Positions 17,945 through 58,772 of a DNA stretch of 64,000 bases are shown in pieces; positions within the stretch are counted from its first letter, which is position 1, and every line of letters starts with the position of its first letter. The stretch spans positions 1 to 64,000 of the forward strand of contig NZ_KZ984459.1 of assembly GCF_003569915.1 (NCBI RefSeq), read 5' to 3'. A model generated the notes under the pieces. It did no database searches, had not been told where the DNA came from, and was given only the letters and a program-made list of their open reading frames with translations. Made by a program: the position numbers and the translations under genes. This DNA is from Comamonas testosteroni (lineage in GTDB: Bacteria; Pseudomonadota; Gammaproteobacteria; Burkholderiales; Burkholderiaceae_C).

Positions 17945-18610
17945 ATGACTCAGAACACTCCCCCCTCATTTTTCAGCCGCATCGCCATTGCGATCGGCAG
18001 CTTTTTTGCCATTTTGGGCAACGGACGTCTGGCCGCCGATGTGAGCCGCGTGCGCGCTGGTGAATCCTTTGCTGCCGACGTGGCGCCCAAGGAAGTGCGC
18101 GTTGAAGTGCCGGTCGAGAAGATCGTGGAAGTTCGCGTGGAAGTGCCCGTGGAGAAGATTGTCGAAAAGACGGTCGAGAAACGCGTAGAGGTGCCAGTCG
18201 AAAAACTGGTCGAAAAAACCATTGAAGTGCCAACCGACACCGCCGCCCTGCAACTGCTGGGCCTGATGCAGCGTGAAGCCCGCTTTGTGGACTTTATTCA
18301 GGAAGACGTCGCCCCCTATACCGATGCCGAAATTGGCGCTGCCGCCCGCGTGGTGCACGAAGGCTGCCGCAAGGTTCTGCGCGAGCATTTCACGATTGCG
18401 CCCGTGCGTACCGAAGCCGAAGGCTCTCGCATCACGCTGCAAGCTGGTTTTGATGCCACTACGGTGCGCCTGACCGGCAATGTGGTGGGCCAGGCCCCAT
18501 TCACGGGCACGCTGGGTCATCGCGGCTGGCAAGTGACTGAAGTCAAGCTGCCCCAGCTGACTGACACACAGGCCGCCAAGGTGATTGCACAGGCCGAGGT
18601 GGAGCTGTGA
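17945..18610 (+). CDS. DUF2760-domain protein with EVPVEK repeats
   Basis: 221 residues. After a hydrophobic N-terminal helix (SRIAIAIGSFFAILG, likely an anchor) comes a repetitive segment with five or six copies of a V-E-V-P-V-E-K-I/L-V-E-K unit (about residues 50-100). The C-terminal DUF2760 domain has RFVDFIQEDVAPYTDAEIG, VHEGCRKVL and GHRGWQVTEVKLPQL. The stop overlaps the Hsp70 start (TGATG at 18608). DUF2760 genes are known to accompany Hsp70-like genes; the function is unknown. The repeat likely forms an extended spacer between membrane and domain. Confidence 0.82.
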   Translation: MTQNTPPSFFSRIAIAIGSFFAILGNGRLAADVSRVRAGESFAADVAPKEVRVEVPVEKIVEVRVEVPVEKIVEKTVEKRVEVPVEKLVEKTIEVPTDTAALQLLGLMQREARFVDFIQEDVAPYTDAEIGAAARVVHEGCRKVLREHFTIAPVRTEAEGSRITLQAGFDATTVRLTGNVVGQAPFTGTLGHRGWQVTEVKLPQLTDTQAAKVIAQAEVEL

Positions 18611-20511
18611 TGAATACCTTGAATACTCCTGATTCTGTAGCTGCAAGCCTGAATGAGTCTAAGGCTACAGCCCGTTTCAGCATTGGTATCGACCTGGGCA
18701 CCACGCACTGCGCGCTGTCGTTTGTGGACAAGCAGGCCAGCGATGGCGACAAGGTTGTGCAGCAGGTGCTGGAGATTCCCCAGCTCACCGGCCCGGCCAG
18801 CGTGGAGGCCAAGCCGCTGCTGCCGTCGTTCCTTTATCTGCCGCACGAAAGCGAGCTGAGCGCCGCTGAAATGGCACTGCCCTGGGGCGCAAGCCAGGAC
18901 TTTGTGGTCGGCGAGTTTGCGCGTTCGCGCGGCGCAGCCACGCCGATTCGTCTGGTCAGCAGCGCCAAAAGCTGGCTGTGCCACCCTGGTGTGGATAGAC
19001 GCTCGCCCTTGCTGCCAGCCGATGCACCCGAAGAAGTGCACCGTGTCTCGCCGCTGACGGCGTCGATTCGTTATCTCTCGCATCTGCGCTGGGCCTGGGA
19101 AAAGTCTCACCCCGAAGCACCGTTTGATGCGCAGGACATCACCGTCACCATCCCCGCCTCGTTTGACCCCGCCGCGCGCGAGCTGACGGCCGAGGCTTGC
19201 AAGGCCGCAGGTTTTCAAAACCTCACGCTGCTGGAGGAGCCTCAGGCGGCGCTGTACAGCTGGATTCAGGCCAGCGGCGGCGACTGGCGTAAGCAGGTCA
19301 AGAACGGCGATGTGATTTTGGTGGTGGACGTGGGTGGTGGTACCACCGACCTATCGCTGATCGCCGTGCTGGAGCGCGATGGCAATCTGGAGCTGCAACG
19401 CGTGGCCGTGGGCGAGCATATCTTGCTTGGTGGCGACAATATGGACCTGGCTCTGGCCTATGGCGTGGCCCGCAAGCTCGCGCAAGAAGGCAAGCAGTTG
19501 GACGCCTGGCAGACCCGCGCGCTGGCCCATGGTTGCCGTGCAGCCAAGGAGCAATTGCTGGCTGATGAAAGCCTGCAATCCGTGCCCGTGGTTGTGCCCA
19601 GCCGTGGCAGCAAACTGATCGGCGGCAGCATCCGCACCGAAGTGACACGCGCCGAAGTGCTGGCCATGCTGGTCGAAGGCTTCTTCCCCAAGGTCGCCGT
19701 CAGCGACAAACCCATCACCCGCGCACGCGGCGCGCTCACGCAGCTGGGTCTGCCTTATGCGCAGGATGCTGCGGTCACACGCCATCTGGCAGCGTTCCTG
19801 AGCCGCCAGGCCGGTGTAGCCGAGCAGATCGAAGGCCTGCAAGGCACGCAGCCAGAGGGTGCTTCGTTCCTGCACCCCACGGCCATTCTGTTCAACGGCG
19901 GTGTGCTCAAGGCCTCGCAGATCGAGCAGCGCATTGTTGAAGTCATCAACGGTTGGCTGACTGCTGAAGGCGCGCAGGCTGCGCGTCTGCTCGATGGTGC
20001 CAATCTCGATCTGGCCGTGGCACGCGGCGCGGCTTATTACGGCCATGTGCGCCAGGGCCGTGGCGTGCGCATTCGTGGCGGCACGGCGCAGTCGTACTAC
20101 GTGGGTGTGGAATCGAATATGCCCGCCATCCCCGGCATGGAGCCGCCCATGTCCGCGCTGTGCCTGGCACCGTTTGGCATGGAAGAAGGCACCGAAGTGG
20201 CGCTCGACGCGCAGGAGTTCGGCCTGGTCGTGGGCGAGCCCGTGCGCCTGCGCTTCTTTGGCTCATCCGTGCGCCGCGCTGATGCGGTGGGCACCCTGCT
20301 GGACTTCTGGGGCCCGGACGAGCTGGTCGAGTTGCAAGAGATTGAGCTGAATCTGCCCGCTTCCGGTCGCGCCGCTGGCGAGGTCGTACCTGTGACTTTG
20401 CAAGCCCGCGTGACCGATATCGGTACGCTGGAACTCAATGCCGTACCTGTCGGTGGCAGCGAGCGCTGGAAGGTGGAGTTTGATGTGCGTGCTGAAACGG
20501 TGACCGAATAA
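18610..20511 (+). CDS. Hsp70-family (DnaK/HscC-like) ATPase
   Basis: 633 residues. The actin-like nucleotide-binding domain carries phosphate 1 FSIGIDLGTTHCALS (about residues 24-38), EEPQAALYSW, phosphate 2 VVDVGGGTTDLS (about 238) and an adenosine motif-like FNGGVLKAS. The C-terminal part is a short beta-rich substrate-like domain and lacks the DnaK lid and EEVD-like tail. It is not canonical DnaK, which is longer and clusters with grpE/dnaJ. It is translationally coupled to the DUF2760 protein, so the pair probably act together. The client and role are unknown. Confidence 0.88.
   Translation: MNTLNTPDSVAASLNESKATARFSIGIDLGTTHCALSFVDKQASDGDKVVQQVLEIPQLTGPASVEAKPLLPSFLYLPHESELSAAEMALPWGASQDFVVGEFARSRGAATPIRLVSSAKSWLCHPGVDRRSPLLPADAPEEVHRVSPLTASIRYLSHLRWAWEKSHPEAPFDAQDITVTIPASFDPAARELTAEACKAAGFQNLTLLEEPQAALYSWIQASGGDWRKQVKNGDVILVVDVGGGTTDLSLIAVLERDGNLELQRVAVGEHILLGGDNMDLALAYGVARKLAQEGKQLDAWQTRALAHGCRAAKEQLLADESLQSVPVVVPSRGSKLIGGSIRTEVTRAEVLAMLVEGFFPKVAVSDKPITRARGALTQLGLPYAQDAAVTRHLAAFLSRQAGVAEQIEGLQGTQPEGASFLHPTAILFNGGVLKASQIEQRIVEVINGWLTAEGAQAARLLDGANLDLAVARGAAYYGHVRQGRGVRIRGGTAQSYYVGVESNMPAIPGMEPPMSALCLAPFGMEEGTEVALDAQEFGLVVGEPVRLRFFGSSVRRADAVGTLLDFWGPDELVELQEIELNLPASGRAAGEVVPVTLQARVTDIGTLELNAVPVGGSERWKVEFDVRAETVTE
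18633..18674. repeat. Possible repeat fragment at the 5' end of the smaller hsp70 gene
   Basis: GATTCTGTAGCTGCAAGCCT and GTCTAAGGCTACAGCC form a short inverted, AT-richer patch with GTAGCTG/GGCTAC cores, encoding the unconserved N-terminal 20 residues. Resemblance to the dispersed family is weak. Confidence 0.25.
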
Positions 20512-21762: not shown

Positions 21763-24600
21763 ATGTATTCCTCCCGCACTACCTACGCCATTGGCATTGA
21801 TCTGGGGACTAGCCACACGGTTGTAGCCAGCGTATTACTTGCGGGTTCTGCTACGAATATTGAGCTTCTTGCCATTCCCCAGCGCAGCACCGCTGGTGAG
21901 GTTCTGGCCCAGCCGCTGCTGCCTTCGGTGCGCTATCAGGCTGCGGTGGGAGAGTTGGGCGATGCATGGCAGCAGCCCTGGCCGCCGCAAAACGCAAGCG
22001 AAGATGCCCCCGCCGTGATTGGCCGCTGGGCGCGTGATTTGGGCACGGCCGTACCCGGGCGTCTGGTGGCCAGCGCCAAAAGCTGGCTCTCGCATACCGG
22101 CGTGGATCGCACCGCGCCGATCCTGCCCTGGGGCGCGGGTGATGATGTGGCCAAGGTCTCGCCACTGGCCGCGTCGGCTTCCTATCTGGCCCATGTCAAA
22201 GCGGCCTGGGACAAGGCGCATCCCGATGCTCCGCTCGATCAGCAAAGCGTGGTGCTCACAGTCCCCGCATCGTTTGACGAAGGCGCACGCGCCTTGACGT
22301 TGGAGGCCGCGCAGCTTGCAGGCCTGCCCGGCGTGCAATTGCTGGAAGAGCCCAAGGCCGCGTTTCACGACTGGCTGGTGCTGCAAGGCCATGCGCTGGC
22401 CGCGCAACTGGCCGACAGCCGACTGGTGCTGGTGGTGGACGTGGGCGGCGGCACCACCGACCTGACCTTGATTCGTGTGCAGGCCGGCAAGGCGGGCGAG
22501 CTGCCCACGCTGACGCGCACAGCCGTGGGCGAGCATCTGATGCTGGGCGGCGACAACATGGATCTGGCGCTAGCGCACCAGCTTGAATCACAGTTTGCTG
22601 GTGATGGACAGAAGCTGCCCGCTGCGCGTTTCGCGCAACTGGTGCAGCGCTGCCGCATTGCCAAGGAGCAACTGCTGGCAGCCGATGCACCAGAGCAAGT
22701 CAGCATCACCTTGCTGGGTGGTGGCAGCAAGCTGCTGGCCAAAACGCAAAGCGCGCAGCTGACGCGCGAGCAGGTGCGCCAGTCGGTGGTGGATGGATTC
22801 TTGCCAGCAGCGCAGATCAACGACAAGCCCGCAAAGCGCCAGGGCGCGTTGCGCGGCTTTGGTTTGCCCTACCCGGCAGACGCGGCCATCACGCGGCATC
22901 TGGCGCAGTTTCTGACCCAGCATGCAGGCGATGAGCTGCCCGATACCGTGCTGCTCAACGGCGGCGTATTCCATGCACATGCGATTGTCGAGCGGCTCAC
23001 GCAGCAGCTTGGCGCATGGCGCGGCAGTGCGGTGCGTGTGCTGCACAACCCGCACCCGGACTGGGCCGTGGCACGCGGCGCTGCGGCCCATGGTCTGGCG
23101 CGTTGGCAGCAGGAGTTTGAACGAAACAAGCCTGATGTCCAGATGCAACATAGGCAATCAGCTATCAAAGTTGATAAGGCTCATGCGCCGCTGCCCATGA
23201 TTGGCGGCGGCTCCGCACGCAGCTACTGGCTGGTACTGCCGGGCAAAAAAGGCGCACCGCCGCAAGGTCTGTGCCTGCTGCCGCGTGGCACGCAAGAGGG
23301 CGTGCGCATGGTGCTCTCGGGGCGGCGTTTTGCGCTCAAGCTGGGGCAGGCCGTGCGCTTTAGTCTGGTCGCGCAAAGCGGCAATCAACCCGCACAGGCC
23401 GGGCAGTTGCAGCCACTGCAGGGCGATGGCTGGGTAGAACTGCCACCTATCGCTACGGTGCTGCCAGCACCCGAAGGCAAGAGCGCGACGCAGATCGAGG
23501 TGCAGTTGCAAGCCAGCATGAGCGAAGTCGGCACGCTGGAAGTACGCTGCGTGGCGGTTGATGATGCCAGCCAGTCCTGGCTGCTGCCTTTCTCGTTGCG
23601 TGGCGCTGCTTCTGAAAACATAGCAGATGGCGTAGATGATTCCAGGACTGATGGCCCAAATGATTCAAAACTGGCTGATGCACTGGCGCTGATCGAGCGC
23701 ATCTTTGGCAATCAGGCGCAGGAAGTCTCGGCCAAGGAAGTGCGCCAGCTGCGCCAGTCGCTGGAGAAAATTCTGGGACCGCGCGACGACTGGGATGTGG
23801 CGCAACTACGCGCCTTGTTCGATGCGCTGCTGGCCCGTGCCAAGCGCCGCCGCCGCACTGCAGACCATGAGCGCGTATGGCTCAATCTTGCAGGCTGGTG
23901 CCTGCGCCCCGGTGTGGGCGCGCAGCTTGACGGCTGGCGCATCGAGCAGGTCTGGGCCCTGTATGCGCAGGGCCTGGGCCATGCCAAGGAGGCAGCCAAC
24001 TGGACCGAATGGTGGGTCTTCTGGCGCCGCGTGGCGGCAGGCCTGAACGAGGCGCAGCAGATGGAACTGCTCGAAGACGTGGCAGGTCACATGCAGAAGG
24101 CCGTGCAGCAAAGCACACGTGGCAAAAGCAGCCATGGCAGTTACGACGATATGCTGCGCCTGTTTGCCGCCATGGAGGCCGTGCCCTGGCAGTACCGGCA
24201 GGAGATGGGGCAGTGGATGCTGCAGCGCCTCAAGCGCCCTGACGAAACCGTGCAGACCTGGTGGGCCATCGGGCGTCTGGCTTCGCGCCAGTCGCTGGCC
24301 GCCAATGCACATCTGGTCATGCCGCCCGATGCTGCGCAGGAGTTTTTGAATGCCACCTTGGCCCAAGACTGGCGCAAGAACGAAACCGCCATGTTTGCCG
24401 CCGTGCAAATGGCGCGCATGACGGGTGACAGAGCCCGTGACCTGCCCGACGATGTGCGTGCGCAGGTGCTCGAAAAAATGCGCGCCAGCGCCGCGCCCGA
24501 GCGTTGGTTGACGATGGTCGAACAGGTCGTGGAGATGCAGGCCGAAGACCAGAAGCGCAGTCTGGGTGACAGCTTGCCGCCGGGGCTGGTGCTGTTATGA
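21763..24600 (+). CDS. Large Hsp70-family protein with C-terminal DUF3731-type region
   Basis: 945 residues. N-terminal actin-like ATPase domain: YAIGIDLGTSHTVVAS (phosphate 1, about residue 8), EEPKAAFHDW, VVDVGGGTTDLT (phosphate 2, about 225) and LLNGGVFHAH. After residue about 640 the protein gains a 300-residue helical extension with LRQSLEKILGPRDDWDV and HERVWLNLAGWCLRPG, as in Hsp70-like proteins with DUF3731. It aligns with the smaller Hsp70-like protein at 18610. However, about 25 residues encoded by an AT-rich repeat (23128-23188) are added before GGGSARSYWLVL, and another low-GC patch occurs at 23612-23680. Its stop overlaps the DUF2809 gene. Confidence 0.88.
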   Translation: MYSSRTTYAIGIDLGTSHTVVASVLLAGSATNIELLAIPQRSTAGEVLAQPLLPSVRYQAAVGELGDAWQQPWPPQNASEDAPAVIGRWARDLGTAVPGRLVASAKSWLSHTGVDRTAPILPWGAGDDVAKVSPLAASASYLAHVKAAWDKAHPDAPLDQQSVVLTVPASFDEGARALTLEAAQLAGLPGVQLLEEPKAAFHDWLVLQGHALAAQLADSRLVLVVDVGGGTTDLTLIRVQAGKAGELPTLTRTAVGEHLMLGGDNMDLALAHQLESQFAGDGQKLPAARFAQLVQRCRIAKEQLLAADAPEQVSITLLGGGSKLLAKTQSAQLTREQVRQSVVDGFLPAAQINDKPAKRQGALRGFGLPYPADAAITRHLAQFLTQHAGDELPDTVLLNGGVFHAHAIVERLTQQLGAWRGSAVRVLHNPHPDWAVARGAAAHGLARWQQEFERNKPDVQMQHRQSAIKVDKAHAPLPMIGGGSARSYWLVLPGKKGAPPQGLCLLPRGTQEGVRMVLSGRRFALKLGQAVRFSLVAQSGNQPAQAGQLQPLQGDGWVELPPIATVLPAPEGKSATQIEVQLQASMSEVGTLEVRCVAVDDASQSWLLPFSLRGAASENIADGVDDSRTDGPNDSKLADALALIERIFGNQAQEVSAKEVRQLRQSLEKILGPRDDWDVAQLRALFDALLARAKRRRRTADHERVWLNLAGWCLRPGVGAQLDGWRIEQVWALYAQGLGHAKEAANWTEWWVFWRRVAAGLNEAQQMELLEDVAGHMQKAVQQSTRGKSSHGSYDDMLRLFAAMEAVPWQYRQEMGQWMLQRLKRPDETVQTWWAIGRLASRQSLAANAHLVMPPDAAQEFLNATLAQDWRKNETAMFAAVQMARMTGDRARDLPDDVRAQVLEKMRASAAPERWLTMVEQVVEMQAEDQKRSLGDSLPPGLVLL
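23128..23188. repeat. AT-rich dispersed repeat in frame inside hsp70
   Basis: TAGGCAATCAGCTATCAAA at 23151-23169 is identical over 19 bases to the complement of the intergenic 58348-58366. The frame is open and encodes VQMQHRQSAIK. The smaller Hsp70 paralogue lacks this segment, which supports insertion. Confidence 0.75.
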
Positions 24601-25007
24601 GCGTGGGCACCCCATTTCAACGTTCGCGCATCGCGCTGAGCCTGCTCATCGCGCTCATCATTGCCGTGGGGTTGGCGTCGCGTCACGGGTATGCGCTGTT
24701 TCCTGTCGGGGTGGGCAACTACCCTGGCGATGCGCTTTGGGCCTGGGTGGTGCTGCTGTGCGTGGCCTGGGTGCAGCCGACGATCACGCGCACCCGGCTG
24801 GTGGTGAGTTCGCTGGTGATTGCCTTTGCCATTGAGTTTCTGCAGCTCTATCAGGCGCTGTGGATTCAGACGGTGAGAGCCAACAAGCTGGCCTATCTGA
24901 TCCTGGGCAATGGCTTCGACCCGCTGGATTTGTTGGCCTATGCGGTGGGCATTGGATTGGGTGCGGCGCTGGATTGGTGCTGGCAACATTGGCTCACAAA
25001 GCATTGA
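24597..25007 (+). CDS. DUF2809-domain membrane protein
   Basis: 136 residues, start overlapping the hsp70 stop (ATGA). Four hydrophobic segments: IALSLLIALIIAVGLAS, ALWAWVVLLCVAWVQ, LVVSSLVIAFAIEFLQLYQ and LDLLAYAVGIGLGAALDW. The family motif is FAIEFLQLYQ followed by NGFDPLDLLAYAVG. DUF2809 proteins are small integral membrane proteins of unknown function. Coupling to the Hsp70-like gene may be incidental. Confidence 0.83.
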   Translation: MSVGTPFQRSRIALSLLIALIIAVGLASRHGYALFPVGVGNYPGDALWAWVVLLCVAWVQPTITRTRLVVSSLVIAFAIEFLQLYQALWIQTVRANKLAYLILGNGFDPLDLLAYAVGIGLGAALDWCWQHWLTKH

Positions 25008-25064
25008 GCGGGGTTGGCATGCCTCTGGCTTACCATGGCTTCCTGCCATTCGCCAAAGGCCAGC

Positions 25065-25385
25065 ATGTTTGATCTCACCTCAGTCCCCGCTTTTCTTGCG
25101 CGCCAGACCGGTGTGCCGAGAGATGATGGTTTGATGATCTATGCGCCCGAAGAGGTGGCAGAGCGCAACCAGACCTATGAGGTGGCGGAGTATCTGCCGG
25201 GGCATCTGATGGTTGGTGGCGATAGCGGCGGGCGAGGCATCTTGATTGATGACAGTGGTGTGGTCTGGATTTGTGGGTTAGGCGCGCTGTTTCTGGATGT
25301 CCGGGAACTGTTGTCGCCGCATCTTGCGCAATGGGTAGAGCAGGACTGCCTCCTGCCATCATGGGATGACGAAGACGATGAGTGA
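25065..25385 (+). CDS. SMI1/KNR4 (SUKH)-like protein
   Basis: 106 residues from ATG 25065 (MFDLTSVPAFLARQTGVPRD). The family-like core is LMIYAPEEVAERNQTYEVAEYLPGHL, then GGDSGGRGILIDDSG and the turn VWICGLGALF. SUKH proteins often act as immunity proteins to polymorphic toxins, but housekeeping members exist. It overlaps the next gene by 8 bases, so they are co-expressed. No toxin gene is nearby. The acidic C-terminus SWDDEDDE is notable. Confidence 0.72.
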   Translation: MFDLTSVPAFLARQTGVPRDDGLMIYAPEEVAERNQTYEVAEYLPGHLMVGGDSGGRGILIDDSGVVWICGLGALFLDVRELLSPHLAQWVEQDCLLPSWDDEDDE

Positions 25386-25887
25386 CGCTGTGCGCTTTGA
25401 GGCTGGGTTTATAGAGTCTCTGCACCAGATAGCCTGGTTTTCACGCTGTGGGCAAGAGCTGCCAGAGGGTTTGCCTTTTGACGCCACGCGCGTCGCCACG
25501 CTCAAAAAAGCAGCGCGCCAGTGGGGCTCAAACCAGTGGGAAGACGCCACGCTGGAAGCGCGCAATCTGCTGACCAGTTTTCTGTTTGACCATGCCCGTG
25601 ATGACTACCGAAAATGGAATGAAATCACGCGGCAGGCCAAGGCTGAAATTGCCCAGCCGCTGGCAGAAAAATACTGGCTGCCATTCATGCAGCAGCAGGG
25701 GCTGGAGGTGGATTTTCTGCATTGCGTGCAGTGGGACATTCTGGCGCTGTGCATGGAGCACGCCTACCGCCAGCAGCGCGGTCTGCCGCAGTTTTTTCAT
25801 GAGTTGCTCAAGGTCTATGCAGCAGGCCAAATGCCTTGCGGATGGGACGGCGGCAAATATCCCAAAGGGCGGTTGCTGGCCTGGTGA
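25378..25887 (+). CDS. Unknown protein paired with the SMI1/KNR4-like gene
   Basis: 169 residues from ATG 25378, overlapping the previous stop; an in-frame ATG at 25366 would add four residues. The protein is soluble, rich in Trp and Gln, and mostly helical by appearance. It contains WGSNQWEDATLEARNLLTSFL, a central RQAKAEIAQPLAEKYW and CMEHAYRQQRGLPQFF. I do not recognise a family. Tight coupling to the SUKH-like gene suggests a joint role, perhaps a second immunity-type protein (inference). Confidence 0.65.
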   Translation: MSDAVRFEAGFIESLHQIAWFSRCGQELPEGLPFDATRVATLKKAARQWGSNQWEDATLEARNLLTSFLFDHARDDYRKWNEITRQAKAEIAQPLAEKYWLPFMQQQGLEVDFLHCVQWDILALCMEHAYRQQRGLPQFFHELLKVYAAGQMPCGWDGGKYPKGRLLAW

Positions 25888-26135
25888 CTTCCGATTGACT
25901 CGCTATTACCCCTGATTCGGCCCACCGGGGTGGCATGAATCCTGCTGTTGGTGGAGATTGCCTGCATCCACGATCTTTGCCGATGGACGCTCCACTGAAC
26001 GATTTGCGCTCTGTCTGGCACCGATCTTGCGTGATGGGCATCCAAGCAAGACCTTTGGCTGCATGCCGCTGTCCAGCAGCGGGGGCCTAGCCTTGCAGCA
26101 CCGGTTGCGATTCCTTCCACAGAGAAAGGGCTGCC

Positions 26136-26720
26136 ATGAGAATTCCGGAGACACCCATGCCAACGTCTGGCTGCTGCTACCTGGTCGGAGCAGTGCCCGG
26201 TTCCCCGAGTCTGCTGACCACCAAGGCGCTGAGGCTGATTCAGGCAGCCACGCTGCTGCTGGTGGATGATCTGGTCTCACCCGAGATTGTGGCCCTGGCC
26301 AGCCCCAGGGCGCGGGTCATCCATGTGGGCAAGCGCGGCGGGCGCGAGCGCGGCTCGCAGGCGTTTATCGAAAAGCTGATGATCATGGCAGCCCGTCAGG
26401 GCGAGCTGGTGGTGCGCCTCAAAGGCGGCGAGCCTTTTGTCCTTGGCCGTGGTGGCGAAGAGGCGCAAAGCCTGCGCGCGGCGGGCGTGCCCGTGCAGGT
26501 AGTCAATGGCATCACGTCCGGCCTGACTGGTTCCACCGGCCCTGGCTTTCCGCTGATCCACAGGGCGCAGGTGCGCGGCGCGAGCTTCACCCACGGCCAT
26601 CTCAGGCGGGCCGGGGCCGCGCAGGACTGGAAGATGCTGGGCCAGGTGGCCCATCCGTTGGGGCTGATGCTGCTGCTCTACATGGGCGTGAGCAGCGCGG
26701 CAGGCATTTGCCTGATTTAG
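26136..26720 (+). CDS. Truncated uroporphyrinogen-III C-methyltransferase-like protein
   Basis: 194 residues, against about 250-280 for complete SUMT/CobA enzymes, which methylate uroporphyrinogen III towards siroheme and cobalamin. Recognisable blocks: CCYLVGAVPGSPSLLTTKALRLI, LVDDLVSPEI, VGKRGGRERG, VVRLKGGEPFVLGRGGEEA and LLYMGVSSAAG. The frame stops right after the YMGV block, so the C-terminal 60-80 residues, including part of the SAM site, are missing. Normally strict residues are altered (GAVPGSP for GAGPGDP; STGPGFPLIHR for APAYAGIPLTHR). A good AGAAAGGG-like site precedes ATG 26136. It is probably decaying or has a changed function. Confidence 0.75.
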   Translation: MRIPETPMPTSGCCYLVGAVPGSPSLLTTKALRLIQAATLLLVDDLVSPEIVALASPRARVIHVGKRGGRERGSQAFIEKLMIMAARQGELVVRLKGGEPFVLGRGGEEAQSLRAAGVPVQVVNGITSGLTGSTGPGFPLIHRAQVRGASFTHGHLRRAGAAQDWKMLGQVAHPLGLMLLLYMGVSSAAGICLI

Positions 26721-26888
26721 CTGACGGTATGGGCCAGCGTGTCACGCAATGGTCTCGGGGGCATGCAAAGCATGACTAGAATTTCCGGGAGCTTGCTGGC
26801 TGCGCCTGCAGGTTTCCCCTTGGTCATTCAACATGCCGGACCTTGCACATCACAAGGGGGATGAGGCCCGGCACATCCGAGAGCCGTG

Positions 26889-28331
26889 ATGAGCACTGCA
26901 TACCCAGATACCCAGCTTTTGATTGATGGTCAATGGCAGGACGCTGCCAGTGGCAAGCAGATTGATGTGCGCAACCCCGCGACGGGCGAGGTGATTGGTC
27001 GTGTGGCCCATGCCGATATTCCTGATCTGGACCGCGCACTGGCGGCTGCCGACAAGGGCTTCCAGGTCTGGCGCAAGATGTCGGCCCATGACCGCGGCGC
27101 CATCATGCGCAAGGCGGCCAGCCTGCTCAAGGAGCGTGCCGATGAAATCGCCGCCCTGCTGACGCAGGAGCAGGGCAAGCCGCTGATCGAGGCCAAGGTC
27201 GAAGTCGTGGCCGGTGCCGGCATCATCGAATGGTTTGCCGACGAAGCCCTGCGTGTCTATGGCCGCATCGTGCCATCGCGCAAGCCCGAGCAGCAGCAAC
27301 TGGTCATCAAGGAGCCAGTAGGCCCTGTGGCCGCTTTCACGCCGTGGAACTTCCCCGTCAACCAGATCGTGCGCAAGATTGGCGCGGCGCTGGCTTCGGG
27401 CTGCTCCTTTCTGTGCAAGGCCCCAGAAGAAACTCCCGCGTCGCCCGCCGCTCTGCTCAAGTGCTTTGTCGATGCTGGCATTCCCGCCGGTGTCGTGGGT
27501 CTGGTCTATGGCAACCCGGCGCAGATTTCCGAGTATCTGATTCCCCACCCGGTGATCCGCAAGGTCACCTTCACCGGCTCTACCGCTGTGGGCAAGCAGC
27601 TCGCTGCGCTGGCCGGTCTGCACATGAAGCGATCCACCATGGAACTCGGCGGCCATGCTCCTGTAATCGTAGCTGAAGACGCAGATGTTGCGTTGGCAGT
27701 GAAGGCGGCGGGTGCTGCAAAGTTCCGCAACGCCGGTCAGGTCTGCATCTCGCCCACGCGCTTTCTGGTGCACAACAGCGTGCGCGAGGAATTCACGCGG
27801 GCCATGGTGGCCCATGTGGAAGGTCTGAAGGTGGGCAATGGTCTGGAAAAAGGCGTGCAGATGGGCCCGCTGGCCAACCCGCGCCGCGTGACAGCGCTGA
27901 CGCAGCTGATCCAGAACGCCGAGCAAAGCGGTGCCAAGCTGCTGGCCGGTGGTAGCGCTTTTGGCGATGCAGGCAACTTCTTCGCGCCCACGGTGCTGGC
28001 CGATGTGCCTTTGACCGCCGATATCTTCAACCAGGAACCTTTTGGCCCCGTGGCTGCGATTCGCGGCTTTGACCGGATTGAGGATGCGATCACCGAAGCC
28101 AACCGCTTGTCTTATGGCTTGGCGGCCTATGCCTTCACACGCTCGCTCAAGACCACGCACCAGCTGTCGCAGGATGTGGAAGCGGGCATGCTGTGGATCA
28201 ACCAGCCTGCGCTGCCATCGGCCGAGCTGCCGTTTGGCGGTATCAAGGATTCGGGCTATGGCTCCGAAGGCGGCCCTGAAGCGCTGGAAGCCTACCTTGT
28301 GTCCAAGGCCGTGGCGATTACTTGCGTGTAA
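26889..28331 (+). CDS. NAD(P)-dependent aldehyde dehydrogenase (succinate-semialdehyde type)
   Basis: 480 residues, cytosolic ALDH superfamily. Motifs: [19 protein letters not shown] (cofactor), [10 protein letters not shown], general base Glu in [11 protein letters not shown] (about 251), catalytic Cys in GQVCISPTR (about 283), EPFGPVAAI, and [15 protein letters not shown] near the C-terminus. The GabD-like ending fits succinate-semialdehyde dehydrogenases, though related alpha-ketoglutaric semialdehyde dehydrogenases look similar. ATG 26889 is chosen over the GTG just before it. It is monocistronic, with a strong terminator downstream. Confidence 0.9.
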
Positions 28332-28353
28332 AGGCGCTAGCTGCGATGCAATG

Positions 28354-28382
28354 AAAAAGCCGCTGAATTCAGCGGCTTTTTT
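28354..28382. terminator. Bidirectional intrinsic terminator
   Basis: AAAAAGCCGCTGAATTCAGCGGCTTTTTT: palindromic stem with A and T tracts, between the convergent aldehyde dehydrogenase and FUSC genes. Confidence 0.9.
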
Positions 28383-28396
28383 GTGGGCGATGACTC

Positions 28397-30391
28397 TCAG
28401 GCGATGGACGCGGTGCTGGAGAAAAATACCGGGTGTGCCTTGATGTCCTGCGCGGCCAGTTGCAGCTGCAGCGCTTCTTCGGGCTGGCGTTGCTGGATGC
28501 GGCTGGCAACGCCTTGCAGCAGCGGTGCGATCTTGCTTGTGGAGCTGGGCAGGTGCTGCAATCTCTGCAGCGCGCTGCGTATGCCACGCAAGCTGCTTTC
28601 GGACAGCTGCACATCGTCCTGCAGTTGGTGCAGTATCAGAATGGACTTGCCCACACGCAGCGCGGCCAGGCCGCAGTCCGAGGCATCCTGCACCTCTGCG
28701 GCGCTGACTTTTTCCGAGGCGCGCACCAGGCGCAACAGGCGGTGGAACAGGCGGGCGCGCCACACGCGCAGGTCGCGGCCATGCAGCGGGGCGGCGGCCA
28801 TGTCCTGCAGCTCATGCACCATCATGGCTTTGAGCCCTTGCAGGCGGCCTTGCACCGTCACGGGCAGGATGAAACGGTAGGCCACCCAGCCTGCCAGCGG
28901 GCCGGTGACGATGGCCACCGCCATGGACAGCGAGTGGCCGTAGTCCAGCTGATAAGGGAAGTGCGGCGACAGAGCCAGCAGCAGCACCATATTGCAGTCA
29001 TAGCCCGAGACCATGGTGCGGCGGTGACTGAACAGCAGTGCGCCGATGATGATGAAGGGCATCATCCACAGCACCATCTGCAGCTGGCTGCTGGCAAACG
29101 GCCAGGCCAGCCACTGGCAGGCCAGCGCTACGGCTGCGCCCATGGCCTGACCGGCAATCACAAAGCGCATGGTGAAGACCGGGTTCTCGAACGATGAGAA
29201 GACCGTGATCATCACCGACAGGCCCAGCAGCATATAGGAGCCGCCATGCCAGCCGGTAATCACCCAGAACAGACCGACGAGAAAGATGGCGCTGAAGGCA
29301 CGCAGCATGGCGCGGCGCGCACCCACCCAGTCGCTGTGCAGCACCACGGGCAGCTGGCGCGCGCGGTGGTTGCTGGGCAGGGGCAGGTCAGTGCAGGCAA
29401 TCAGGTGGGCTTGCAGGGCCAGGCCGATGGTGGTCAGCTGTTCCTGCGCATGGCCCCAGCCGCTGGCGGCGTCGCGGGCGCGGGCAATGGCTTCAATGGC
29501 GGCATGCGGTGCGGGCTGGGTCTCCAGCAGGCGCGCGGCTTTTTCCAGCTCGGCGCTCATGGTCTGCGCATGCTCGGGGGTAAAGGCGGCAGTGATGGTT
29601 TTGCCGCTGCTGTCACGCAGCCACAGCAGCGAAGAGATTTGCGCATTCATCAGGCGGCGCAGCGCACGCACGGAGCGGCGCGAGCGCTGAGAACCTGCGG
29701 CATGCGGGTCCAGCCCTTCTTCGATCACGGCCAGCACGGCCAGGCGCTCGGCCAGCTCCTTGGGGGCCAGCACGCCCTGGCCTTTGCGCACGGCCTGCGG
29801 CGCAGCCGCAATATCGCGCAGCAAACGCGCGCACAGGCGGCGCACCTTGTCATTGCCCGGAATTTCAGCGCCCACAGGCGTGAACAACCAGCCCACGATC
29901 AGCGCTGCGGCCACGCCGGTCAAGGCGGTAAACAATCGGTCCCAGCCCAGTTCATAGACATGGGCGGGGTTGCCCGAATCCAGCAGCGCCACCATGGCGG
30001 CGGAATAGCCCGCCAGCATGATGCCGTAGGAGAAAAAGCCACGCTGCAGATTGCCCAGGCCCGCGCACAGACCCATCCACACAGCCAGCCCGGTGACCAG
30101 CCAGAGCAGATCGCCCTGCGCAATCAGCACCAGCGCCACACCGGCGGCGGTGCCGACGATGGTGCCGGCGGTGCGGAAAAAGCTTTTCTCCAGCAACTGG
30201 CCGCGCAGCGGCTGGGACGCGGCCCAGACCGTCATGCCCGCCCATTGCGGATGCTCCAGCCCCAGTGCCCAGGCGGCAAATACGGCGATGCAGGCCGCAA
30301 ACGCGGTGCGCAGATGCTGGCGCAGGCGGGCGCTGTCAAAACCCCAGCGCGCGGCGCGCTCCAGAAAACGGTCGTAGGCAGCCACGCTCAT
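28397..30391 (-). CDS. FUSC-family membrane transporter (aromatic acid exporter type)
   Basis: 664 residues with two blocks of five or six transmembrane segments, the FUSC/AaeB layout. The first block includes LRTAFAACIAVFAAWALGL, PQWAGMTVWAASQPLRGQ and AGTIVGTAAGVALVLIAQGD. The second starts near RAMLRAFSAIFLVGLFWVITGW and runs through GPLAGWVAYRFILP. Cytosolic helical regions follow each. AaeB and YccS relatives export aromatic carboxylates; the substrate here is unknown. The start overlaps the marR stop by 4 bases, so expression is coupled to the MarR repressor. Confidence 0.88.
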   Translation of the reverse strand: MSVAAYDRFLERAARWGFDSARLRQHLRTAFAACIAVFAAWALGLEHPQWAGMTVWAASQPLRGQLLEKSFFRTAGTIVGTAAGVALVLIAQGDLLWLVTGLAVWMGLCAGLGNLQRGFFSYGIMLAGYSAAMVALLDSGNPAHVYELGWDRLFTALTGVAAALIVGWLFTPVGAEIPGNDKVRRLCARLLRDIAAAPQAVRKGQGVLAPKELAERLAVLAVIEEGLDPHAAGSQRSRRSVRALRRLMNAQISSLLWLRDSSGKTITAAFTPEHAQTMSAELEKAARLLETQPAPHAAIEAIARARDAASGWGHAQEQLTTIGLALQAHLIACTDLPLPSNHRARQLPVVLHSDWVGARRAMLRAFSAIFLVGLFWVITGWHGGSYMLLGLSVMITVFSSFENPVFTMRFVIAGQAMGAAVALACQWLAWPFASSQLQMVLWMMPFIIIGALLFSHRRTMVSGYDCNMVLLLALSPHFPYQLDYGHSLSMAVAIVTGPLAGWVAYRFILPVTVQGRLQGLKAMMVHELQDMAAAPLHGRDLRVWRARLFHRLLRLVRASEKVSAAEVQDASDCGLAALRVGKSILILHQLQDDVQLSESSLRGIRSALQRLQHLPSSTSKIAPLLQGVASRIQQRQPEEALQLQLAAQDIKAHPVFFSSTASIA

Positions 30392-30888
30392 GGGCGCACC
30401 TCCGCGTCGGCCACGTCGGTGTGCGTTTGATTGCAGCGCTCGGCGTGCAGCAGCTCCATGCGGGCGCGAATCTTGTTGACGCCGCCCAGCATGGCTTCGA
30501 CCTCATCGTCGCTGAGGTCCTGCAGCATGGACAGCTCGGCGTGAAGCATGGTGGCGCGGATGCTGTCCACGGCGGCATGGCCTTCGGTGGTCAGAAAGAT
30601 GCGCTTGCTGCGGCGGTCGGCCGGGTCGGCGCGTCGCTCGACCAGACTTTTACCTTCCAGAATGTCCAGCAGGCGTACCAGGCTGGAGCTGTCCAGCCCC
30701 ACGCGCTCGGCCAGCTCTTTTTGCGTCACACCATCGCCCCAGGCGCGCAGGTGAATCAGCGGCGTCCAGGTGGCGTCGGTCAGGCCGCTGGCGGCCAGCT
30801 GTTCTTCGACCAAGCGGCGCCATTGGCGGGTGAGGGTGACCATGAGAAATCCCAGTCGGTCGCGGGAGGGGGCATCAGCAAAAGACAT
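30388..30888 (-). CDS. MarR-family transcriptional repressor
   Basis: 166 residues. The winged helix comprises LTDATWTPLIHLRAWGDGVTQKELAERVGLDSSSLVRLLDILEGKSLVERR in the usual order, with the wing DPADRRSKRIFLT. It is coupled to the FUSC exporter downstream, the classic arrangement of a repressor that releases on binding aromatic acids. A dyad at 30912-30940, 24 bp upstream of the start, is the likely operator. Confidence 0.9.
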   Translation of the reverse strand: MSFADAPSRDRLGFLMVTLTRQWRRLVEEQLAASGLTDATWTPLIHLRAWGDGVTQKELAERVGLDSSSLVRLLDILEGKSLVERRADPADRRSKRIFLTTEGHAAVDSIRATMLHAELSMLQDLSDDEVEAMLGGVNKIRARMELLHAERCNQTHTDVADAEVRP

Positions 30889-30911
30889 AAGCCGCCGATT
30901 TTGCTTCTACT

Positions 30912-30940
30912 TCAATTAATTTGCATTTCAAACTAATTGA
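30912..30940. promoter_or_regulatory. Candidate MarR operator
   Basis: TCAATTAATTTG (30912-30923) and CAAACTAATTGA (30929-30940) are inverted copies matching at 11 of 12 bases, spaced by CATTT. It sits directly upstream of the marR start in AT-rich DNA. Confidence 0.65.
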
Positions 30941-30990
30941 ATATGCACTCATGACTAGGGTATTCCCTTGATATGCTTGTGATGGGTAAA

Positions 30991-31018
30991 TAAAAAAGGA
31001 GAGCGACCAGCGCTCTCC
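30991..31018 (-). terminator. Intrinsic terminator of the yeiH-like gene
   Basis: On the minus strand GGAGAGCG, loop, CGCTCTCC is followed by TTTTTTA. It lies 76 bp after the stop of the minus-strand transporter gene. Confidence 0.8.
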
Positions 31019-31093
31019 AGAATTGGGTTTTCAATGATTTATGGCCTGAAAGGCATGTTCAAACCGGGCATGCGGCTTTCATAAAGATAGCGA

Positions 31094-32167
31094 TCAGAAC
31101 AGCTCAGGAATCCACAGATTCAGCGCCAGACCGGCTACCAGCAGCCAGACAAACAGAATCAACGCCAGCAGCAGCGGCTTGGTGCCTGCGGCGCGCACGG
31201 CGCCGATATGGGTGGTCAGACCCAGGGCGGCCATGGCAATGGCCAGCAGCGCGTTGTCCAGCTGAATGCCGGTGCTGACCACGGCTTCGGGCAGCACGCC
31301 CAGCGAGTTCACACCGGCCATGGCCACAAAGCCCACGGCAAACCAGGGGATGATGATCTTGTTGCCCGCCTTGCCGGAGTTCACACCCACGGCCCGCTCG
31401 CTGCGCGCCAACCACATGGACAGAATCAGCAAAAATGGGGCCAGCATCATCACGCGCACCATCTTGGAGATCACGGCCACATCGGCGGCCTGGCTGCCAA
31501 TGGCTTCACCGGCGGCCACAACCTGGGCCACCTCATGCACGGTGGAGCCGACGAACAGGCCGTACTGGTGCACATCGGCGTTGATCCAGCCGAACTCCGC
31601 ATTCCAGTGGAACAGCGCGGGGTAGAGGAAAGTGCCCACGGTGCCAAACACCACCACGGTGGCCACGGCCACGGCTACATCCTCGGCGCGGCCCTTGGCC
31701 ACGGGCTCGGTCGCCAGCACGGCAGCTGCACCGCAGATGGAACTGCCCGCGCCAATCAGCAGCGTGGTGCGCTTGTCCATGCCCAGCAGCTTCTGGCCCA
31801 CCCACTGGGCCAGCAAAAAGGTGCTGGACAGCACCAGCGCATCAATCACCACACCGGCCATGCCGACCTGGCCAATGTCCTGAAACGTCAGGCGCAGACC
31901 GTAGAGGATGATGCCCGCGCGCAGCAGTCTGGCCTTGGCAAAGCCCACGCCGCTGGCGCAGCTGCTGGCGATGGACGGGTAGACGGTGTTGCCGATGACC
32001 AGACCGATGACGATGGCCAGCGTCAGCGCGCTCAGGCCGTTGCTTTTGATGGCGGGAAACTGGGCCAGCCAGGTGGCGACGGCGGCAATGGCGCAGGCCA
32101 GCAGCAGGCCGGGCAGCATGGCAATGGGCTTGTTGTGCTTGGTGGGGGAAAGTGTTGTTGTGCTCAT
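31094..32167 (-). CDS. YeiH/UPF0324-family putative sulfate/sulfonate-type exporter
   Basis: 357 residues from ATG 32167, which has a perfect AGGAGG 4 bases before it. About 10 hydrophobic segments: [70 protein letters not shown] and others. The family signature [12 protein letters not shown] and the [14 protein letters not shown] segment are clear. The substrate is not established; the usual annotation is putative sulfate exporter. In enterobacteria yeiH adjoins the LysR gene yeiE. Here a YeiE-like regulator lies two genes away, with a VanW gene between. Confidence 0.88.
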
Positions 32168-32235
32168 GAAACCTCCTGCTGCCCGGTGCACACAGAGCGT
32201 GGCTGGCAGCGACGGGTTTCACTTTAGATTTGTTA

Positions 32236-32251
32236 GTTATATTTGTATAAC
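32236..32251. promoter_or_regulatory. Candidate LysR-type operator upstream of yeiH-like gene
   Basis: GTTATA-TTTG-TATAAC, a 16-base interrupted palindrome, 69 bp upstream of the transporter start. The size and AT-rich arms fit a LysR-type recognition site. The YeiE-like regulator at 34308 is the natural candidate. Confidence 0.45.
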
Positions 32252-32333
32252 GAATAGTTTTTCTAAGATCAATCGATAAAACAGGTAGATCAGGGAATTT
32301 CTCCCTCTGAAAGCCGCTAAGCGATTGATTTGT

Positions 32334-34196
32334 TTACGGCGCAAGCAGGGGCTGAAGCGAGCGGGCCAGCGCTTCAACATCACCTTCAGCCACCAGCGTC
32401 AGCCCTGTTTGCGGCGGCAGGCCGCAGGCGGCGGTGGAAATCACCGGCAAACCTGCCGCCAGCGCGGCGCGCAGGGCTTGGGGGTTGTGCTCCACATGGG
32501 CGGGCAGCACCATGAGTGCCGCGGCATTGGCCTGCGTCAGCCAGTCATCGCCATGGCCCATGCGCTGCAGTTGCACATGCGGCGGAAGGTGCTGAGGGCT
32601 GAACACCGTGCCCAGCACGATCAGCTGCAGCGGCTGCGTGGGCAGCCGGGCCAGTGCCGCACACAGCTCTCGCCAACCTTTGCGCGCCAGTGTGCTGGCC
32701 GGAAACACAATGGTTTTGATAGCTGCTTGCCTATATATCTTCTGGACTTGAGCCGGGTTTGGCTTGAAATTTTCCTGCCAGACTAGCTCCATCACCTGCG
32801 CGGCCAGGTTCTGCCGCGCCCACTGCGCCACGCCATGGTGGGGTGTGATGATCTGCCGCGCTGACTGCAGGGCCTGCAGCTCGGCCTGTACCAGAGCGGG
32901 TTCGGGCCTGAAGTCACGCAGACTGGGCTCATCGGGCCACAGGCCGGCGGCATGGTCCAGCTGTTCCAGAATCGCCTGCATGGGCAGGGCGGGCATCCAG
33001 ACCGTGAGTTGCCGCCCCGGCAACTGGCCGCTTTGCTGCAGCGCGGGCAGATAAGCCTGATCGGCCAGCAGTTGCGTATCGGTAGGCTGCAGCCGGGCCA
33101 TGGCATGGGCGGCCTGCCAGCGCTGGCCGTCCAGCACGCTGGCCTGGCGCTGACCTTGAGATTTCGCATTCCAGCGCAGCCATAGTGCACGGCGCAGGGC
33201 CACGGCTTTGGCTTGCAGGCCGCTGGCGCTGATCTGCCAGTCTGCATCAGCCAGCTTGCGCGCCACCTGCTGGCGCTGGCCTGCGGTCAGTGCGTGGGGC
33301 AGCGTCAGCCGCTCGCGCAGCTCGGGCATCTGCCGCAGATGGCTGGCCAGCTCGGGCGTCAGTCCGTCAAGCAGCGCATGGCTGCTGCCTTGCTGATCGG
33401 CCAGATTTGCCAGCTCGGGCTGGTGGCGAAAGCAGCTGGTTTCGTTGCAGGTCACGCAGCTGCGCACTACGGGCAGATCCGCCGCAGGGCGCGGGCGCTT
33501 GACGATATGAATGGGGAACTGCGTTGAAGAGTGTGCCGTTCCTGCCGCGCCACGCAGGCGCAGCGTGAGCTGGCTGGCGCTCATCTGCACTTCCAGCCGC
33601 AGCGGCCTGTCCGCCGCAATGCGCAGGTCGATATGCTTCCACAGCACAGTGGCGTCAATCAGGCTGGCGTCGCGCCGGGCCGCTTCGATCAGCGCGGTGT
33701 GCCCATGGCGCTCCAGCAGCGTCAGCCCCGCGCGGCTGGCGGCGGTGGCCAGCGCATTGCTGAGCTGGCAGATGCCGCCGCCAATCGTGGGCACCACACA
33801 GCCTTCGCGAATTTCGCGGCCCAGCACAAAGCCTTTGCGGGTGGTGATGCGGCCCAGTTGCTGCCAGAAGCTCAGCACCGCGCCCGCAGGCAACTCCACG
33901 CCATCAAAAGCCTGCAGAGCCAGCCGCAGGTTGTGCACCTTGCCAGCGGCCAGCGCAAATTCATCGCTGCGCCCGTCGCTCCACAGCGGGCTGCGTACTT
34001 CGGCAAGCACGGGGGCCCGTGCCAGCGCACTGTGCGCAGCGGCCACGGCAGGCCAGCGGCGGATATGGGGCGCGCGCAGGTCTTGCGCCATGCGCTGCAG
34101 CGTCAGCAGCCGGATGCGGGTCCAGAACCACAGCGCCTGCATGCGCGAGGGCAGCACAAAGCCGGGGGCGGAAGTTTCGGGTGGCAGAGCACTCAT
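32334..34196 (-). CDS. VanW domain fused to a glycosyltransferase-like domain
   Basis: 620 residues. Residues from about 55 to 225 form a VanW domain: VLSFWQQLGRITTRKGFVLGREI, PTIGGGICQLSNAL and LLERHGHTALIEAARRDASLID. A cysteine cluster CVTCNETSCFRH follows. The C-terminal half resembles a GT-B glycosyltransferase, with LTVWMPALPMQAILEQL, IVFPASTLARKGWRELCAALARL, NAAALMVLPAHVEHNPQALRAALAAGLPVISTA in order. VanW is of unclear biochemistry and linked to envelope or vancomycin contexts. Fusion to a transferase suggests an envelope glycan role (inference). No signal peptide is seen. A dispersed repeat is embedded in frame at 32703-32772. Confidence 0.78.
   Translation of the reverse strand: MSALPPETSAPGFVLPSRMQALWFWTRIRLLTLQRMAQDLRAPHIRRWPAVAAAHSALARAPVLAEVRSPLWSDGRSDEFALAAGKVHNLRLALQAFDGVELPAGAVLSFWQQLGRITTRKGFVLGREIREGCVVPTIGGGICQLSNALATAASRAGLTLLERHGHTALIEAARRDASLIDATVLWKHIDLRIAADRPLRLEVQMSASQLTLRLRGAAGTAHSSTQFPIHIVKRPRPAADLPVVRSCVTCNETSCFRHQPELANLADQQGSSHALLDGLTPELASHLRQMPELRERLTLPHALTAGQRQQVARKLADADWQISASGLQAKAVALRRALWLRWNAKSQGQRQASVLDGQRWQAAHAMARLQPTDTQLLADQAYLPALQQSGQLPGRQLTVWMPALPMQAILEQLDHAAGLWPDEPSLRDFRPEPALVQAELQALQSARQIITPHHGVAQWARQNLAAQVMELVWQENFKPNPAQVQKIYRQAAIKTIVFPASTLARKGWRELCAALARLPTQPLQLIVLGTVFSPQHLPPHVQLQRMGHGDDWLTQANAAALMVLPAHVEHNPQALRAALAAGLPVISTAACGLPPQTGLTLVAEGDVEALARSLQPLLAP
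32703..32772. repeat. AT-rich dispersed repeat in frame inside the vanW-GT gene
   Basis: The segment TTTGATAGCTGCTTGCCTA (32715-32733) matches the intergenic copy at 58348-58366 in 18 of 19 bases. On the coding strand it gives VQKIYRQAAIK, the same frame as the hsp70 copy. The similarity to the copy at 48903-48942 extends over about 40 bp. Confidence 0.75.
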
Positions 34197-48346: not shown

Positions 48347-48838
48347 ATGATCAATGCCCCCCATTCCGACCTCAGCGACATGCAACTGGTGCGCAACCCC
48401 CATGGCCGTCTGGTGCTGACGCTGGGTGACGGCACGGTGTTCGAAGCCGTGGTGCCCGTGCGCGCCTTTCCCATTGCTGCGCCCACCGAAGGCCTGTCCC
48501 TGATCGCTGCCGATGGCAAGGAAGCCCTGTGGGTCCCCCGCATGGCCGACCTGCAACCCGAGCATCGTCAACTGATCGAGCAAGACCTGGCCGTGCGCGA
48601 GTTCGTGCCCACGATCGAGCGCATCCTCAAGGTATCGAGCTTCTCCACCCCCAGCACCTGGGACTTGCAGACCGACCGTGGCAACACGCAGATGGTGCTC
48701 AAGGCGGAGGAAGACATCCGCAAACTGGCGGGCCGTACCAAGTTGCTGATTGCAGGGCAGGACGGCGTGCAGTACCGCATTCCGGACACCAACCAGCTGG
48801 ATAAGGCGTCGCGCAAGCTGTTGGAGCGCTTTCTGTAA
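48347..48838 (+). CDS. Cyanophycin-associated DUF1854 protein
   Basis: 163 residues, ATG 48347 with AAAGGA upstream, 22 bp after the ABC transporter. Motifs: MQLVRNPHGRLVLTLGDG, VVPVRAFPIAAPTEGLSLIAADGKE, FVPTIERILKVSSFSTPSTWDL and TDRGNTQMVLKAEEDIR. This family is found beside the transporter above and cphA. It is soluble and its function is undefined. Co-occurrence suggests a regulatory or accessory subunit of the transporter (inference). Confidence 0.9.
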   Translation: MINAPHSDLSDMQLVRNPHGRLVLTLGDGTVFEAVVPVRAFPIAAPTEGLSLIAADGKEALWVPRMADLQPEHRQLIEQDLAVREFVPTIERILKVSSFSTPSTWDLQTDRGNTQMVLKAEEDIRKLAGRTKLLIAGQDGVQYRIPDTNQLDKASRKLLERFL

Positions 48839-48852
48839 AGACTGCGCATTTC

Positions 48853-48890
48853 AAAAAAGGCCTCGCGGGCGACCGCCGAGGCCTTTTTTA
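48853..48890 (+). terminator. Intrinsic terminator after the DUF1854 gene
   Basis: AAAAAAGGCCTCG (48853-48865) and CGAGGCCTTTTTT (48877-48889) form a 13-bp stem ending in a T-run. Confidence 0.9.
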
Positions 48891-48892
48891 TA

Positions 48893-48950
48893 TCTTTTAG
48901 AGCTCTAGTCAAGAAGGAATATAGGCAGTCAGCTATCAAAACAGGAATGA
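48893..48950. repeat. AT-rich dispersed repeat (intergenic)
   Basis: CTCTAGTCAAGAAGGAATATAGGCAGTCAGCTATCAAAAC-type block (48903-48942 approximately). Its core at 48922-48940 matches the hsp70 copy in 18 of 19 bases and it matches the vanW-GT copy over about 40 bp. Confidence 0.75.
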
Positions 48951-58334: not shown

Positions 58335-58380
58335 GGTTCTCTACTGATTTGATAGCTGATTGCCTAAATACTATCTAGGC
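58335..58380. repeat. AT-rich dispersed repeat (intergenic)
   Basis: TTTGATAGCTGATTGCCTA at 58348-58366, identical in reverse complement to 23151-23169 inside hsp70, followed by AATACTATCTAGGCTTGC. Confidence 0.75.
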
Positions 58381-58658
58381 TTGCGACCAATTTCTCTGCC
58401 AAAAATGATGGCGACCAACACTCCCCAGATCAGCAGCAGGATGGCGATGGCGTAGTAGGCGGCGCCAGCCTGCATGGCAAAGACCGAGCCCAGCAGTGCC
58501 ACCAGCGCGGCAACGCGGATGACGCGGCGCAGCTGATCCACCGCCAGGCGCTTCTTGATGTGAAACAGCGCTGCAAAGCTGATGACAGCCAGTGCAATCA
58601 GCGCCAGAAAAAGGTCGCCGCCATGGGGCTGTGCGAAGGAGCGAAGGTTTTCAAGCAT
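58371..58658 (-). CDS. Small integral membrane protein
   Basis: 95 residues from ATG 58658 ([20 protein letters not shown]). Three likely transmembrane segments: [40 protein letters not shown] and [19 protein letters not shown]. The basic segment [14 protein letters not shown] lies between. No Shine-Dalgarno is obvious. Function unknown. The repeat at 58335-58380 slightly overlaps its 3' end. Confidence 0.72.
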
Positions 58659-58740
58659 GGATTCATTGTGGCAAAGCTGAAAGAGCTTTGCGCCCAAGGG
58701 CCATGCGCGACGGATATGGCTGCGCCCATGAAAAAAGCCG

Positions 58741-58772
58741 CCCGCTGGCAAGACCAGACGGGCGGCTGAAAA
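58741..58772 (-). terminator. Intrinsic terminator of the lipoprotein gene
   Basis: On the minus strand AGCCGCCCG, loop, CGGGCGGCT is followed by TTTTTTCAT. It is 9 bp past the lipoprotein stop. Confidence 0.85.

Follow-up and report, generated by a model that had tools for sequence, protein, structure and literature searches.

Two unrelated proteins encoded in a 64-kb stretch of the Comamonas testosteroni genome (the window, contig C21 of genome G000) share a peptide pattern, and the question is how it came to be in both. The peptide VQMQHRQSAIK is encoded at 23137-23169 on the plus strand and VQKIYRQAAIK at 32715-32747 on the minus strand. A search for VQ-x3-RQ-x-AIK in all six frames of the window returns these two peptides and no third match. 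The first host is a 945-residue Hsp70-like protein with a DUF3731 domain (21763..24600, plus strand; PF00012, 2.6e-15; PF12531, 6.3e-90). The second is a 620-residue protein with a VanW-like domain and a group 1 glycosyltransferase domain, VanW-GT (32334..34196, minus strand; PF04294, 6.6e-27; PF13692, 1.1e-9). A smaller Hsp70 paralogue, placed by Pfam and alignment at 18607..20511 on the plus strand, shows a gap at the linker when aligned to the larger protein, so that the absence of the segment reported in the first-pass annotation is borne out.

At the DNA level, the 19-mer TAGGCAATCAGCTATCAAA has four matches with three or fewer mismatches in the 64-kb window. These lie at 23151-23169 (plus strand, no mismatch), 32715-32733 (minus, one mismatch), 48922-48940 (plus, one mismatch) and 58348-58366 (minus, no mismatch). 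All four copies and both peptides are found exactly where the first-pass annotation had placed them. Shuffled versions of the window (n=100) contain zero matches at the same threshold, and AGCTATCAAA is observed four times against 0.05 expected. The copies belong to a larger element, whose boundaries (-46 to +19 around a conserved tag) are taken from the column profile of 81 genomic sites and are accurate to a few bases. Copy 1 (23113..23178, plus) lies within the Hsp70-DUF3731 gene and copy 2 (32706..32771, minus) within the VanW-glycosyltransferase gene, and each encodes the linker peptide given above. Copy 3 (48884..48949, plus) is 3' of the reading frame at 48347-48838, directly behind what appears by eye to be a terminator-like hairpin with a T-run. 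Copy 4 (58339..58404, minus) is located between two minus-strand reading frames; it overlaps the 3' end of 58371-58751 and precedes the start of 57316-58320.

The element is dispersed throughout the genome. The 11-mer CAGCTATCAAA has 81 exact sites in the 4.94 Mb of G000, compared with one for the reversed pattern, and this genome-wide excess agrees with the first-pass view of a dispersed repeat. Site counts here and below are of this exact 11-mer. With a scoring profile built from loci outside G000, 75 of the 81 sites pass as full elements of approximately 65 bp (>9 bits), and the other six, all below 7 bits, are taken as chance matches. Four copies in the 64-kb window slightly exceed the 1.05 expected (Poisson P 0.02). 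When the 81 sites are aligned, conservation spans about -46 to +19 relative to the tag and reads gaTTT.aAGtcAAAt.gGCCTCtAGTCCAtAaA..AtATAGGCtagCAGCTATCAAAA. The conserved unit consists of a left arm (AAA...GGCCTC), then a dyad core about 20 bp long and the right-hand tag CAGCTATCAAAA, the constancy of which is partly by construction, as the sites were located by the tag. Copies are mostly single, with three pairs less than 1.5 kb apart among the 81 sites. Scored by open reading frames, not by a gene caller, 57 sites have no frame of at least 150 codons running through them and 24 are traversed by one.

The half-sites of the core are conserved at constant spacing and the spacer is variable. Across seven genomes, the dyad keeps its register in all seven, and the paired fraction at the consensus level is 0.51-0.78, always above that obtained when the partner is slid by one to three positions (0.13-0.58). 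Covariation of paired positions across copies is clear in G000 only (0.676 paired versus 0.634 shuffled, reached by 0 of 500 shuffles). Rfam returns zero matches for the window at the gathering score and, for nine loci at E up to 0.1, one tRNA and nothing else; an RNA family was rejected for want of an Rfam match. A replication-strand bias was also rejected: 36 of the 57 sites in a second genome, G340, share one sense relative to the contig halves (P 0.06), on the presumption that its single contig starts at the origin.

The reading frame that yields the AIK peptide (+0) is open through the element at 44 of the 81 sites, and each of the other five frames at 0 to 32. The shared frame of the two window genes is unsurprising, because +0 is the frame most often open and the next best reaches only 32 sites. 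Fifteen Pfam-supported genes contain a copy above 9 bits, a count that leaves out two Pfam-supported genes at low-scoring sites (L053 and L062 +). Six carry it in frame +0 (DprA, Hsp70, VanW-GT, ABC-F, DUF5682 and a HlyD-like protein) and four in +2 (M61 peptidase, alpha/beta hydrolase, HI0933-like and PurL). Two carry it in +1 (an amine oxidase and a DUF3418 protein, the latter a weak copy of 11 bits), and three are antisense (a ThiL-like protein, a DsbD-like protein and the start of LolA). The first-pass proposal of a single tolerated frame is unsupported in that form, since only six of the 15 genes use the AIK frame, a share in line with how often that frame is open. Five of the 24 long-frame sites (L026, L039, L050, L080 and L082) have no Pfam match in a scan that left out L046 and L062 -. 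A further degenerate +0 copy in the DUF3418 protein is visible in translation only. PurL carries element-like sequence in the SYQ frame at a similar place in L049, L189, L214 and L215, and the PurL copy is kept as real because it scores 27.5 bits, has Pfam support and encodes a peptide that recurs in three other family loci. The peptide that Hsp70 and VanW-GT have in common is read as a by-product of the most often stop-free frame, which gives a soluble linker.

The element is a family-wide repeat of the Comamonadaceae. Among 299 genomes of the family, 151 have a match to CAGCTATCAAA and 148 have none; 55 hold at least 20 sites by hand count, with a maximum of 143, a large excess of the motif. 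The 53 genomes of Comamonas contain 0 to 115 sites each. The 17-mer GCAAGCAGCTATCAAAA occurs in at least 119 stretches from named genomes. Nearly all of the 80 matches listed are from Comamonadaceae or from unplaced beta- or pseudomonadotal MAGs, and the genera among them include Comamonas, Acidovorax, Polaromonas, Rhodoferax, Simplicispira, Ottowia and Diaphorobacter. The clear outsiders among the matches listed are Aureispira, Brenneria and Pedobacter, which look like chance matches. The same 17-mer is present in 19 IMG/VR viral stretches (L457-L475). In a Curvibacter MAG (L228), the tag is followed immediately by its own reverse complement, the arrangement that a tail-to-tail fusion of two elements would give.

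Several genic copies are present at the same place in other species. For Hsp70, several of 21 other loci have a related linker segment, two with AGCTATCAAA intact, and the orthologues of low-copy species lack the segment, which supports the first-pass inference of an insertion. The DUF5682 segment is present by eye in 14 of 29 other loci, eight with AGCTATCAAA intact; all 14 are from genomes with at least 56 sites, and the 15 loci without it are from genomes with 0 to 48 sites. The DprA segment is present by eye in 16 of 29 other loci, seven with AGCTATCAAA intact (30 loci compared, including that of G000, out of 52 genomes with a match). Three of the DprA loci without the segment come from genomes in which 35 to 58 sites are present. 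In 52 other Comamonas genomes there is a single full-length VanW-GT orthologue, and it carries the element at the same position. Wherever a species possesses one of the genic sites checked, residue and frame agree. Judged from these alignments, the insertions in DprA, DUF5682, Hsp70 and VanW-GT are old and common to other species. Insertion at the same base is demonstrated for some sites only.

The first-pass annotation had inferred a mobile or duplicating palindromic element. A repeat that is dispersed, weakly palindromic and in frame in linkers is retained. Present mobility is unsupported, because copies in G000 are only about 50% alike to one another in the core and several genic insertions are common to many species.

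A feature that the first-pass annotation did not mention is a core specific to the lineage. The G000 copies have a derived core, AGTCC...ATAGGC (or GTCCA...ATAGGC-like), at most sites, including sites common to relatives. Other species have mostly an AGCGC...AAGCGC-like core at the same genic sites. The comparison uses 75 of 81 sites from G000, the 51 of 57 sites from G340 that pass the profile, 29 of the 30 sites collected (out of 58) from G341, and the 13 sites listed for each of four other genomes with 49, 65, 70 and 56. Over the seven genomes, core identity is 0.511 for copies of one genome and 0.434 for copies of different genomes. This excess of 0.077 is reached by 0 of 500 permutations (maximum 0.013). 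The excess in the left and right arms (0.013 and 0.014) is within the permutation range, being reached by 9 and 5 of 500. By core alone, the genome of origin is recovered for 65 of 75 G000 copies, 11 of 13 G262 copies and 11 of 13 G217 copies. The remaining four genomes, which have similar AGCGC- or AAcgC-like cores, are poorly separable (5 of 13, 6 of 13, 23 of 51 and 13 of 29 self-assigned). Among the genic copies, 14 of 15 are assigned to G000 by core, those of the DsbD-like, LolA and DUF3418 genes by two to three bits only; the exception is PurL, where the copy lies in a conserved stretch. Of the 22 copies that come from congeneric species, three fall on the G000 side (G299 DprA, +7.4; G317, +2.9; G344, +0.6).

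The split is also present at syntenic loci. Comparison of all 57 G340 sites with G000 yields ten syntenic locus pairs. Two of these are low-scoring 11-mers and are more alike, with core identities of 0.71 and 0.95. In all eight syntenic element pairs, the G000 copy scores +3.4 to +16.5 and the G340 copy -0.5 to -18.3 under core models trained without those pairs; the split of L038/L450 is weak (+3.4/-0.5). Core identity in the eight pairs is 0.38-0.57, compared with 71-87% over the aligned flanks. The left arm of L045/L421 is 95% identical and its core 52%, the tag being identical by construction. In six of the eight pairs, identity of the left outer flank is no higher than chance (0.17-0.31), which leaves a common insertion point unproven for those six. 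From these sequences, it looks like the core was changed by concerted, in-place replacement in the G000 lineage, even at shared sites.

A candidate agent is the RAYT type of Y1/HUH transposase. G000 has one such gene, which scores 66 bits against NF047646 (below the cut-off of 80) and is above the cut-off for PF01797. In five other genera, seven loci have an element that starts within the RAYT reading frame, 1-6 bp from its end, and is oriented like the gene. A flanking element is found at 11 of 48 high-copy RAYT loci (E up to 0.01), compared with 0 of 57 low-copy or no-copy loci (E up to 1; Fisher 9e-5). The 57 comprise 27 low-copy loci, which include IS200-like transposases as the top-scoring loci were taken, and 30 from control genomes, 24 of which have no site and none more than 4. 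L128, from a genome with 48 sites (G187), is counted as high-copy. A tag match of 8 or 9 of 9 positions within 110 bp behind the RAYT stop occurs at 10 of 36 high-copy loci outside Comamonas, 0 of 8 within it and 0 of 27 controls. About two adjacencies would be expected by chance in high-copy genomes, as a rough estimate, and the fixed position would not be. The adjacency may be one ancestral event kept by descent. None of the eight RAYT loci of Comamonas itself has a recognisable flanking element, so RAYT is unproven as the agent. RAYT presence tracks copy number only weakly (49 of 55 high-copy genomes versus 173 of 244 others), and a search for Y1_Tnp finds no match in one genus, three genomes of which have 28, 41 and 48 sites. 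RAYT is thus a lead for the spread of the element and only a candidate for its rewriting. Some RAYT loci show further structure by eye. Two elements around the gene in L277 share an identical stretch of about 30 bases (core and tag), inverted, and the two flanking cores in L284 are partly inverted relative to each other. Loci L279, L275, L277 and L284 have GGGGACA- or GGGGTCAG-like flanks, and the reading frame that starts just downstream in L279 is presumably GltB.

The element resembles the REP/RAYT system (REPtron) in being a high-copy short palindrome with a conserved tag on one side, and in adjoining RAYT genes in some genera. REPs occur inside some genes, and their flanking of RAYT genes is known (PMC3733652, PMC2817692). 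The element differs in having the tag CAGCTATCAAAA where REPs have a GT(A/G)G head, in being mostly single and in leaving the RAYT of its own genus unflanked. A GTAG or GTGG head beside the palindrome is absent from the column profiles of the G000 and family copies, and for lack of such a head the element is kept apart from the REPs; its mode of action may be REP-like. The TIRtron/TIRYT motif is GGGGWSAS (PMC3733652), which the GGGGACA- and GGGGTCAG-like flanks of RAYT loci here fit by eye. The dispersed repeat is not that terminal repeat; at the 3' end of RAYT genes it is located between the terminal repeat and the RAYT stop. BRE, a small dispersed repeat of Bordetella and Comamonadaceae that is sometimes inside genes, is similar in these respects (PMC3110155). 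Its description gives about 90 bp, an average of 69% G+C in Bordetella and an often tandem layout (PMC3110155; Hot et al. 2011), whereas the element here is about 65 bp, AT-rich and mostly single. BRE was rejected on size, composition and layout, and is set apart by this description rather than letter by letter.

A related sequence is found on plasmids. In NZ_MZ513635.1 (L476:499-789), the DUF1010 reading frame between dfrA12 and aadA2 contains a family-type copy in the SYQ frame, with a core hairpin that is perfect by eye. We take this frame of the integron cassette array to be gcuF. The 54-base consensus matches 1764 plasmid records, 714 from Escherichia and 690 from Klebsiella, of which one record was read. 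The cassette holds one captured copy on a plasmid and is not a dispersed family. Nine element-bearing reading frames in the DUF1010-like frame have no Pfam match, and for this reason DUF1010 as a family is not equated with the repeat. Literature searches for the CAGCTATCAAA and TTTGATAGCTG strings returned unrelated titles, and searches on Comamonadaceae REPs and Comamonas interspersed repeats found nothing on the sequence of the element.

The reading that we prefer, with modest confidence, is a REP-like Comamonadaceae repeat of about 65 bp, the copies of which are overwritten in place through RAYT or gene conversion. Copies would be overwritten from one another where they stand, a form of concerted evolution. 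One route would be single-strand cutting and strand transfer at the palindrome by a RAYT-type (HUH, Y1) enzyme, and another would be short-tract gene conversion. Higgins et al. reportedly asked in 1988 whether REP sequences undergo gene conversion. For the original spread, RAYT would be the first choice, because in several other genera the element overlaps the end of its gene. A wider proposition, on which we are evenly poised, is that the cores are rewritten in place across the whole genome, driven either by a single-strand transposase or by a DNA binder with sequence specificity. Each lineage would then have its own dialect at inherited sites, including coding linkers, where the amino acids change with it.

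The main rival, which we consider unlikely but deserving of serious attention, is that the core serves as dimer site for a DNA-binding protein (a regulator or nucleoid protein) whose specificity changed in the lineage. Selection would then alter the sites letter by letter, with no copying. Conserved half-sites at constant spacing around a variable spacer are as expected of such a site, as are the core identity of only about 50% between copies and the little pair covariation within genomes other than G000. The variable spacer, and covariation that is clear only in G000, fit a protein-bound dyad no less than a copied hairpin. A regulator's site would not be expected to have arms, to lie inside genes or at RAYT ends, or to range patchily from 0 to 143 sites per genome, and parallel change at tens of sites demands strong selection at each, also in coding linkers. 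It is improbable, to a greater degree, that a plain mobile element with turnover mimics rewriting, old copies being lost and new ones of the G000 type inserted in the same intergenic gaps. The near flanks of six of the eight syntenic pairs are too diverged to fix the insertion point, and only eight pairs link the 75 elements of G000 with the 51 of G340, so most sites are unshared. The genic sites checked, however, agree in residue and frame across the species that possess them, and L045/L421 keeps its left arm while its core differs. Common ancestry of Hsp70 and VanW-GT, a convergent peptide or a chance match have the peptide similarity in their favour and nothing further. These were rejected as hardly credible on the empty shuffles, the 81 genomic sites versus one and the orthologues of low-copy species that lack the linker segment, and because the same DNA is also intergenic and in other frames.

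The element accounts for short peptides common to unrelated Comamonadaceae proteins. It also identifies the DUF1010 reading frame flanked by two resistance genes on an E. coli plasmid as the carrier of a Comamonadaceae-type repeat. Orthologous sites, some of them fixed by their coding context, reveal cores that changed together in one lineage. If the preferred reading of in-place overwriting is true, concerted evolution of a bacterial dispersed repeat would become testable and separable from insertion.
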